From: Pseudoponticoccus marisrubri
GTDB taxonomy: Bacteria > Pseudomonadota > Alphaproteobacteria > Rhodobacterales > Rhodobacteraceae
Direction: 5' to 3'
Length of the DNA: 64,000 nt
Assembly (NCBI RefSeq): GCF_001482405.1
Contig: NZ_LPXO01000001.1
Span: forward strand, 620,001-684,000
The notes under the pieces: generated by a model
Seen by the model: only the letters and a program-made list of their open reading frames with translations
Database searches by the model: none
What the model was told of the DNA's origin: nothing
Shown here: piece by piece, positions 21,004 to 22,267 of the stretch
Layout of the letters: each line of letters opens with the position of its first letter
Position numbering within the stretch: the stretch's first letter is position 1
Made by a program: the position numbers and the translations under genes

Positions 21004-21339
21004 ATGGACCTTCAACTCCAGCAGACGGGACCGGTGAACGTGATCACGGTCGATGCGGCGCGGATCGACGCGGCGGTGGCGATCCAGTTCAAGGACGGCA
21101 TGCGCGAACGGCTGAACAGCGTGCAGGGCCGCACGGTGCTGGACCTGCACAAGGTGGATTTCATCGATTCCAGCGGACTGGGCGCCATCGTCGCCGCGAT
21201 GAAGTTGATGCCGCAGGGCAACAAGCTGGAACTGGCCGGGCTGACCCCGGCGGTGGACAAGGTGTTCCGCATGACGCGGATGGATTCGATCTTTGCCATC
21301 CATGACACGGTCGCCGACGCCGCCGGGCCGCCCGGCTAG
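21004..21339 (+). CDS. STAS-domain anti-sigma factor antagonist
   Basis: A 111-residue single STAS domain. VLDLHKVDFIDSSGLGAIVAAM (about 48-69) contains the conserved DSSGLG, whose second serine is the phosphorylation site in SpoIIAA/RsbV-type antagonists. It is followed 27 bp later by a HATPase kinase gene, reproducing the RsbV-RsbW partner-switch order. No ECF or SigB-like sigma factor or PP2C phosphatase is adjacent, so the output could be a distant sigma factor, or the pair may act on another target. GAGGCAGGC precedes the ATG. Confidence 0.9.
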   Translation: MDLQLQQTGPVNVITVDAARIDAAVAIQFKDGMRERLNSVQGRTVLDLHKVDFIDSSGLGAIVAAMKLMPQGNKLELAGLTPAVDKVFRMTRMDSIFAIHDTVADAAGPPG

Positions 21340-21366: not shown

Positions 21367-21834
21367 ATGCAGATCGAGACCGCGCCGGACGGGACGCTTG
21401 TCCTGAGCAGCGCCATCGACAGCACGCCCGAGGCGGTGCGCGACCTGCTGGCGCGGCTGACCGCGGCGCTACAGGCCCGCGATGCCCTGCCCCCGCCCGA
21501 TTCCATGTGGGAACTGGTGCTGGCCGAGGCGCTCAACAACATCGTCGAGCATGCCTATGGCGACCGCCCCGCGGGACGCATCGCGCTGCGCATCGCGCGG
21601 GGCCCCGGACGGCTGCGCGTGGACATTGCCGATCACGGGCGACCCATGCCCGGCGGCCGCCTGCCCGACGAACGCGATGCCGACCTCACCGTGGCGGCCA
21701 GCGACATGCCCGAGGGCGGATTCGGCTGGACGCTGATCCGGCGCCTGACCGAGGATCTGCGCTATACCCGCGACGGGCCGGTCAACCGCCTGCGCCTGTC
21801 GATCCGCCTGACACCGCCCGGACAGGTGTCGTGA
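21367..21834 (+). CDS. HATPase-domain anti-sigma factor/serine kinase (RsbW-like)
   Basis: A 155-residue GHKL ATPase. The N box is ELVLAEALNNIVEHAY (about 51-66), the G1 box is VDIADHGRPMPGG (~94-106) and the G2 region is GGFGWTLIRRL (~123-133). There is no sensor or histidine-phosphorylation domain, which fits an anti-sigma kinase that phosphorylates the neighbouring STAS protein. Gene order and 27-bp spacing support co-transcription. The following 433-bp spacer contains a duplicated hairpin element. Confidence 0.88.
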   Translation: MQIETAPDGTLVLSSAIDSTPEAVRDLLARLTAALQARDALPPPDSMWELVLAEALNNIVEHAYGDRPAGRIALRIARGPGRLRVDIADHGRPMPGGRLPDERDADLTVAASDMPEGGFGWTLIRRLTEDLRYTRDGPVNRLRLSIRLTPPGQVS

Positions 21835-21849
21835 AATGGCCCGGACCGG

Positions 21850-21965
21850 GTCACAGTCCTGCCCAGATGCACCGGCATACACGGTCTTGTAGCTGCATAT
21901 GGCTTCCCTCGGTGCCGCGTGTTATCAGCCCCCACCCAGTGCGCGGCACCGAGGCTCTTCTCCCC
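21850..21965 (+). repeat. Duplicated hairpin element, copy 1 (candidate structured RNA)
   Basis: This and copy 2 share ~90-115 bp at an offset of 191 bp. A 25-base block (21888-21912, including GTAGCTGCATATGGCTTC) and an 18-base block (21926-21943, including CAGCCCCCACCCAGTG) are identical in both. The hairpin has a perfect 13-bp stem, CCTCGGTGCCGCG (21907-21919) with CGCGGCACCGAGG (21942-21954), around a 22-base C-rich loop, followed by a pyrimidine-rich tail. No ORF with a ribosome site explains it. The stem differs from copy 2 by compensatory changes, arguing for an RNA. Confidence 0.85.
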
Positions 21966-22037
21966 CACAAATTCCGGAACAAAACCCACGCCACGCGCGG
22001 CACACACGCCGTTAACCGGTCCGAGTCTTTCCCCAGC

Positions 22038-22160
22038 GTCACCATATTTCCGCCCGGTTTGCCCGGCATACCCGTCGCTGTAGCTGCATATGGCTTCCCT
22101 CGGCGCCACGTTGCAACAGCCCCCACCCAGTGCGTGGCGTCGAGGTATCTTCCCCTCTCC
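22038..22160 (+). repeat. Duplicated hairpin element, copy 2 (candidate structured RNA)
   Basis: The stem is CCTCGGCGCCACG (22098-22110) with CGTGGCGTCGAGG (22133-22145). Compared with copy 1, one T-A pair has become C-G, one G-C pair has become A-T, and one G-C has become G-T. All 13 pairs survive on the plus strand, whereas on the minus strand the last change would give an A-C mismatch, which favours a plus-strand transcript. Copy 2 ends ~110 bases before the first DUF805 gene, so it could also act as its leader. A weak partial similarity to the unit start recurs near 22189-22216. Confidence 0.85.
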
Positions 22161-22267
22161 AGACAGAACCGACAGGCCGGGCACCGCGCCGCCACATTTC
22201 CGCGCTTTCGCCCCAATCGCGCCGCAGCGTCCGGGCACCCTGCGCGAGACCCCAGCGGAGAGCCCCG

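Follow-up and report, generated by a model that had tools for sequence, protein, structure and literature searches.

Two copies of a hairpin element in one spacer

The stretch analysed in this study, hereafter the window, comprises 64,000 nucleotides (nt) of the Rhodobacteraceae species Pseudoponticoccus marisrubri (contig NZ_LPXO01000001.1 of assembly GCF_001482405.1, positions 620,001 to 684,000 of the forward strand). Within it, a STAS gene and a HATPase gene are followed by a spacer (21835-22267) and then by DUF805 genes, and this spacer holds two copies of a hairpin element which, judged by its conservation and pairing, is almost certainly a conserved plus-strand structured RNA family that is new to Rfam. 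The RNA is likely to be an independent small RNA (sRNA) gene with its own conserved promoter, free of its neighbour context. The first-pass annotation of the window, made from the letters alone, had described two hairpin copies 191 nt apart with stems of 13 base pairs (bp); both are present, and folding adds a fourteenth pair on the loop side of each stem as well as a small 5' hairpin (Table 1).

Table 1 Positions of the RNA copies, their parts, promoters and upstream genes in the window (SL1 and SL2, first and second stem-loop)
Feature	Position	Strand	Remarks
Copy-pair element	21852-21954 and 22043-22145	+	191 nt apart, 78% identity over 103 nt
sRNA copy 1 (predicted)	21889-21966	+	Covariance model R1, E 5.5e-19; alignment A1
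sRNA copy 2 (predicted)	22080-22157	+	R1, E 5.4e-18; R3, 86.5 bits
SL1, copy 1	21891-21904	+	AGCU/GGCU stem, 4 pairs; folding, covariation
SL2, copy 1	21907-21954	+	14-bp stem 21907-21920 / 21941-21954
C-rich loop CAGCCCCCACCCAGTG, copy 1	21926-21941	+	Near-invariant in A1; candidate interaction site
G-poor pyrimidine tail, copy 1	21955-21966	+	Candidate termination or processing region; base composition
SL2, copy 2	22098-22145	+	Stem 22098-22111 / 22132-22145, full only with one G-U pair
Loop motif, copy 2	22117-22132	+	
Promoter, copy 1 (predicted)	21827-21882	+	Four 11-bp units, C at 21830, 21841, 21852, 21863 (-59, -48, -37, -26)
-10-like box CATACA, copy 1 promoter	21876-21881	+	
Promoter, copy 2 (predicted)	22018-22073	+	Four-unit array, C at 22021, 22032, 22043, 22054
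CATACC box, copy 2 promoter	22067-22072	+	
Weaker array	22187-22242	+	Tentative; score 13.6, model E 0.1; 25 nt before the first DUF805 start codon
STAS gene	21004-21339	+	Pfam; upstream neighbour outside the RNA
HATPase_c_2 gene	21367-21834	+	Pfam; upstream neighbour outside the RNA

Structure and covariation of the RNA

In an alignment of 87 distinct copies (A1), the element is composed of a short 5' hairpin (SL1), a 14-bp stem with the almost invariant loop GCCCCCACCC (SL2) and a G-poor pyrimidine tail, and RNAalifold predicted the same two hairpins from A1 unaided. Standard pairs occupied 99.2% of the 1564 pair cells of this alignment, and the pairing fell to 30-51% when the 3' partners were slid along. 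Changes on both sides with pairing kept were found in 11 of the 14 long-stem pairs of these 87 sequences; cells of this kind numbered 69 as compared to 17 in shuffles, and none of 500 shuffles reached the observed covariation values. The stem changes among the homologues keep pairing, contrary to the refuting outcome that the first-pass annotation had named. Between the two window copies themselves, T-A was replaced by C-G, G-C by A-T and another G-C by G-U, so that the two compensatory changes and the single G-U pair read by the first-pass annotation are seen in the sequence.

The plus strand is taken to be the RNA strand because the long stem contains 142 G-U cells and because SL2 pairs fully as plus-strand RNA in 76 of the 87 sequences, as against purely Watson-Crick stems in just 6. 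The plus strands of the two window copies folded with z-scores of -3.4 and -3.3 and were more stable than all 200 shuffles, whereas folding of the minus strand was weaker relative to shuffles (z-scores of -2.1 and -1.8). Both the G-U cells and the folding scores favour the plus strand, the only one in which the first-pass annotation had found pairing to be complete.

Conservation in A1 was far higher in the loop than in the stems. Among the divergent members, which are the weakest matches, the 5' hairpin turns to AGCG/CGCT or AGCC/GGCT and is usually still paired, the sequence of the long stem is replaced and the loop core GCCCCCAC is retained; a wider divergent set, the alignment of which was fitted to the model, had both-sided changes in 13 of the 14 long-stem pairs. 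Because this core stays while the stems change, we take the loop as the prime candidate for an interaction site of the RNA.

Rfam 15 searched at gathering thresholds gave no match at 21850-22160, and at E up to 10 only a chance match to a long non-coding RNA (8.8 bits). No description of the RNA was found in a search of open-access literature on DUF805 RNA motifs, the loop or roseobacter sRNAs, although experiments published elsewhere may have listed it by a different name. The proposal of an undescribed structured RNA is strongly supported, with covariation above that of shuffles and no counterpart in Rfam 15.

A DNA element that itself has no function as RNA, such as a mobile repeat, a dyad or a terminator of the STAS-HATPase operon, would suit a position that many genomes share, directly behind the HATPase stop codon (the proposed RNA start lies at a median of 95 nt past it). 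We consider this very improbable, as the genome holds only 2 copies, which is not the picture of a mobile repeat, the sites are conserved, the G-U pairs are functional only in plus-strand RNA, and the loop is invariant and preceded by its own promoter.

The 5' end was placed at the start of the conserved GUAGCUG and the 3' end in the pyrimidine tail, which would give the window copies a length of about 75-80 nt. Past SL2, a C- and U-rich stretch with hardly any G was seen across 140 copies, and some divergent members have a hairpin followed by a T-run 15-30 nt further downstream, as judged by eye. In one divergent member (L186), the terminator-like hairpin after the RNA contains GGTGGGGGC, which is complementary to the loop core of the RNA itself.

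Distribution of the RNA

Related sequences were found by blastn in 54 of 147 relatives, and an exact 23-mer of the element was found in the species collection on 97 contigs, of which almost all bear the names of Rhodobacterales or marine alphaproteobacterial genomes. The covariance model R1 matched 293 of the 395 genera searched (about 74%) of GTDB Rhodobacteraceae, and the covariance-model search suggested by the first-pass annotation has thus returned further copies across the family. The blastn and R1 counts are both far beyond chance. Neither R1 nor R3 had a match outside Rhodobacteraceae in two samples drawn from the whole class (289 and 385 genomes). Major bacteria of marine and soil habitats belong to the Rhodobacteraceae, and few of the sRNAs in the family are both conserved throughout it and understood; this RNA occurs in about three quarters of the sampled genera, covaries strongly, has a loop that hardly varies and is preceded by a promoter whose code is unusually clear. 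One contig labelled Enemella evansiae TN21-6 carries a locus sequence identical to that of a Rhodobacteraceae genome (G002), and this record looks mislabelled or contaminated.

The promoter array and its candidate regulator

The region upstream of the RNA is itself conserved. Among 133 distinct promoters, a C is conserved at -59, -48, -37 and -26 and positions -13 to -8 hold a CATAnn-like box; the pattern C-N10-C-N10-C-N10-C is present in 130 of them. The units of this array read GCCnnAAT; GCC-N8-GCC was found in 39 of the 133 promoters as compared to 2.9 in shuffles and to at most 18 for the other spacings tested, and the autocorrelation of the C profile peaked at 11 and 22 bp. The promoters of divergent members (n=26) keep the array (z-score of 13.5 at 11 bp). 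In the window, the promoter of copy 1 has the highest position-weight score (32.0; model E 9e-7 genome-wide), followed by that of copy 2 (28.0; E 6e-5), and the next distinct place scores 14.0; both promoters belonged to the training set of the promoter model. Direct repeats in tandem, spaced by one helical turn and reaching the -10 box, are consistent with class-II activation by a regulator of the OmpR/PhoB type.

The ChvI consensus of Sinorhizobium meliloti, as quoted in PMC9731502, is N-GCC-N8-GCC, and the repeats of the sRNA promoters have the unit and spacing of this quoted consensus. The genome of P. marisrubri contains pckA, chvI, chvG, hprK, rapZ-like and EIIA-like genes in the usual order; ChvI and ChvG (L164, L192) carry the Pfam domains Response_reg and Trans_reg_C, and HisKA and HATPase_c, respectively, with hprK adjacent. 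It is fairly likely that the 11-bp repeats are ChvI sites. Elsewhere in the genome, significant matches to the array are few, namely an uncharacterised gene on contig C24 (E 4e-5), one on C3 (E 0.002) and mtgA on C6 (E 0.002). The last of these is an mtgA-like peptidoglycan transglycosylase gene (L197) with an 11-bp array of this kind about 150 nt upstream (C6:50499-50548), and it fits the expectation for an envelope regulon. Near-identical array-like repeats also lie close to contig ends (C12:127-286 and C6:38-93) and possibly belong to a replicon or a repeat element.

Neighbouring genes and the leader question

The usual upstream neighbours of the RNA are the STAS gene (84 of 97 loci) and the HATPase gene (89 of 97), and 82 of 95 loci have ggt downstream in the same orientation, at a median of 88 nt past SL2. 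Such an order would suit a cis-acting leader of the downstream gene, that is, of ggt in most genomes and of DUF805 in P. marisrubri, but we regard a leader as unlikely. Between the RNA and ggt, 55 of 93 loci contain a sigma-70-like site, TTGRC-N16-19-YWnnnT, as compared to 1.3 in shuffles, which suggests that ggt is served by a separate promoter. In P. marisrubri, the DUF805 genes take the place of ggt, of which only distant paralogues (34-39% identity) were found elsewhere in the genome, and the RNA stands in tandem copies with a promoter for each. A second conserved site is formed by 18 divergent loci in which DUF2794 is beside the RNA, several of them with adhC downstream, and neither ggt nor STAS is nearby. 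Taken together, the ggt promoter, the replacement by DUF805 in P. marisrubri and the DUF2794 site argue that the RNA is an independent gene and not a leader.

The first-pass annotation had offered two possibilities, a tandem sRNA or a leader of the DUF805 operon. The former is favoured by the conserved promoter that each copy has of its own, and the latter is not supported, as a nearby DUF805 gene was detected in no more than 8 of the 97 loci (several of the 97 being truncated), the usual downstream gene is ggt and other members occupy an unrelated site. The weaker array before the first DUF805 gene (Table 1) may be a third copy of the promoter that now serves DUF805. Several genomes hold both the ggt-type and the DUF2794-type locus on separate contigs, and no copy of the RNA was found at the DUF2794 locus of P. 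marisrubri. One locus (L177) shows the hybrid order DUF2794, RNA, ggt and in this way connects the two sites.

Proposed mode of action

Our overall reading, which we hold to be probable with some reserve, is that each copy is an independent, ChvI-activated, trans-acting base-pairing sRNA. The sequences show the structure and strand of the RNA, its conserved promoter, its freedom from particular neighbours, its spread through the family and the ChvI locus of the genome, and from them we infer its transcription, ChvI as the regulator and base pairing as the mode of action. Each copy would be a stand-alone gene for a regulatory RNA of the length given above, transcribed from its own promoter and beginning at the conserved GUAGCUG. 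An OmpR/PhoB-type regulator, most likely phosphorylated ChvI, would occupy the four GCCnnAAT half-sites from one side of the helix and recruit RNA polymerase to the weak CATAnn -10 box. The RNA would fold into the small 5' hairpin and the long hairpin that presents the open C-rich loop, with the pyrimidine tail last. In cells under envelope, pH or osmotic stress, the loop would base-pair to a G-rich segment in one mRNA or a small number of mRNAs and so alter their translation or stability, in the manner of ChvR and GsrN of Caulobacter. If ChvI does drive the RNA, ChvGI would possess one sRNA arm in Caulobacter and a separate one in Rhodobacteraceae, the convergent recruitment of sRNAs by an envelope-stress regulator would become directly testable, and the promoter array would serve as a handle on the ChvI regulon of Rhodobacteraceae.

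Several results weigh against this reading. Standard terminators after SL2 were not above control in the main group (15 of 140 versus 13 of 137 regions). The other array places in the genome are mostly weak, and among the 28 that score at least 13, a gene begins no more than 200 nt downstream of 9, as against 9% expected. The link to ChvI rests on a second-hand motif match and on an OmpR-family spacing which other regulators could share, and the ChvI motif reported for C. crescentus, TTGC-N3-GCAA (PMC9731502), differs from the sRNA array. The chvI promoter region of the genome itself scores low for the array. These last two points speak for an independent sRNA with an 11-bp array that is bound by another OmpR/PhoB-type regulator or tandem-repeat binder, which is possible. 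Proteins of the OmpR/PhoB family commonly bind direct repeats of roughly 11 bp, in favour of the same alternative; the exact match in unit and spacing to the S. meliloti consensus, as quoted, and the like array at mtgA, predicted for an envelope regulator, favour ChvI instead.

The loop was also searched for targets, in a scan of 2.46 Mb (54% of the genome) with gene starts taken from rough gene calls. Also weighing against our reading, the loop complement GTGGGGGC occurred in 1 of 2058 translation-start regions as compared to 51 occurrences in coding sequence (ratio 0.28), near the bottom of 56 permutations of the same composition, and no convincing target candidate was found in the scanned 54% of the genome. 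Because GTGGGGGC is not enriched at translation starts, a broad anti-Shine-Dalgarno role is argued against. The result would fit one dedicated target, as is reported for ChvR (PMC6237742), with a target in the unscanned part of the genome, or with protein binding. In the last case the conserved loop would be a protein-binding site and the RNA a sponge or scaffold that does not pair with mRNA, which appears doubtful to us. Besides the scan, the much higher conservation of the loop than of the stems and the location of rapZ in the chvIG operon are in its favour, and the RapZ homologue of E. coli binds sRNAs. In GsrN and other known sRNAs, on the other hand, C-rich loops pair with G-rich mRNAs (PMC5869019). 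A combined form, in which a core Rhodobacteraceae sRNA at two conserved sites would be the RNA arm of ChvGI and its invariant loop would bind a protein such as RapZ and not mRNA, is improbable.

Comparison with known small RNAs

ChvR is an intergenic sRNA of 84 nt with its own promoter under ChvI-ChvG, and it acts via its stem-loop regions (PMC6237742). The Rhodobacteraceae RNA resembles it as a short alphaproteobacterial sRNA with its own promoter, stem-loops and predicted ChvI control, but ChvR has three stem-loops and adjoins recF, whereas the RNA described here has two, other neighbours and often a tandem arrangement. Homology to ChvR is not detectable since the models have no match outside Rhodobacteraceae in two class-wide samples, a comparison in which the ChvR sequence itself did not directly take part. 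GsrN has an exposed, highly conserved C-rich loop, and about half of its predicted interactions use this loop and G-rich targets (PMC5869019). The exposed and conserved C-rich loop is the shared trait; GsrN has a sigma-T promoter, its C-rich loop is at the 5' side and its blastn matches are limited to Caulobacteraceae, whereas the Rhodobacteraceae RNA carries the loop on SL2 behind a promoter with a response-regulator-like 11-bp array. Membership in the ChvR or GsrN families is not claimed because no model match lies outside the family and because the promoter and layout differ from those of GsrN.

CcsR sRNAs of Rhodobacter sphaeroides likewise have C-rich loops, and the first-pass annotation had been reminded of them. 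They are also a tandem sRNA family of the same bacterial group; the likeness in the C-rich loop stands as a loose analogy, whereas the sequence and promoter arrangement differ, each copy of the Rhodobacteraceae RNA having its own promoter and a different loop. RSs0680a of R. sphaeroides depends on an RpoHI/II promoter common with RSP_6037 (PMC3320616). Identity with CcsR/RSs0680a was rejected: the RNA is a different one, and its neighbours are STAS, HATPase, ggt or DUF805 and not an RSP_6037 homologue. RusT of C. crescentus, with four stem-loops, is NtrX-controlled and Hfq-bound (PMC11005374). It shows no sign of relation to the Rhodobacteraceae RNA and shares with it envelope-related two-component control and a conserved loop for target pairing, both of which are predicted here.
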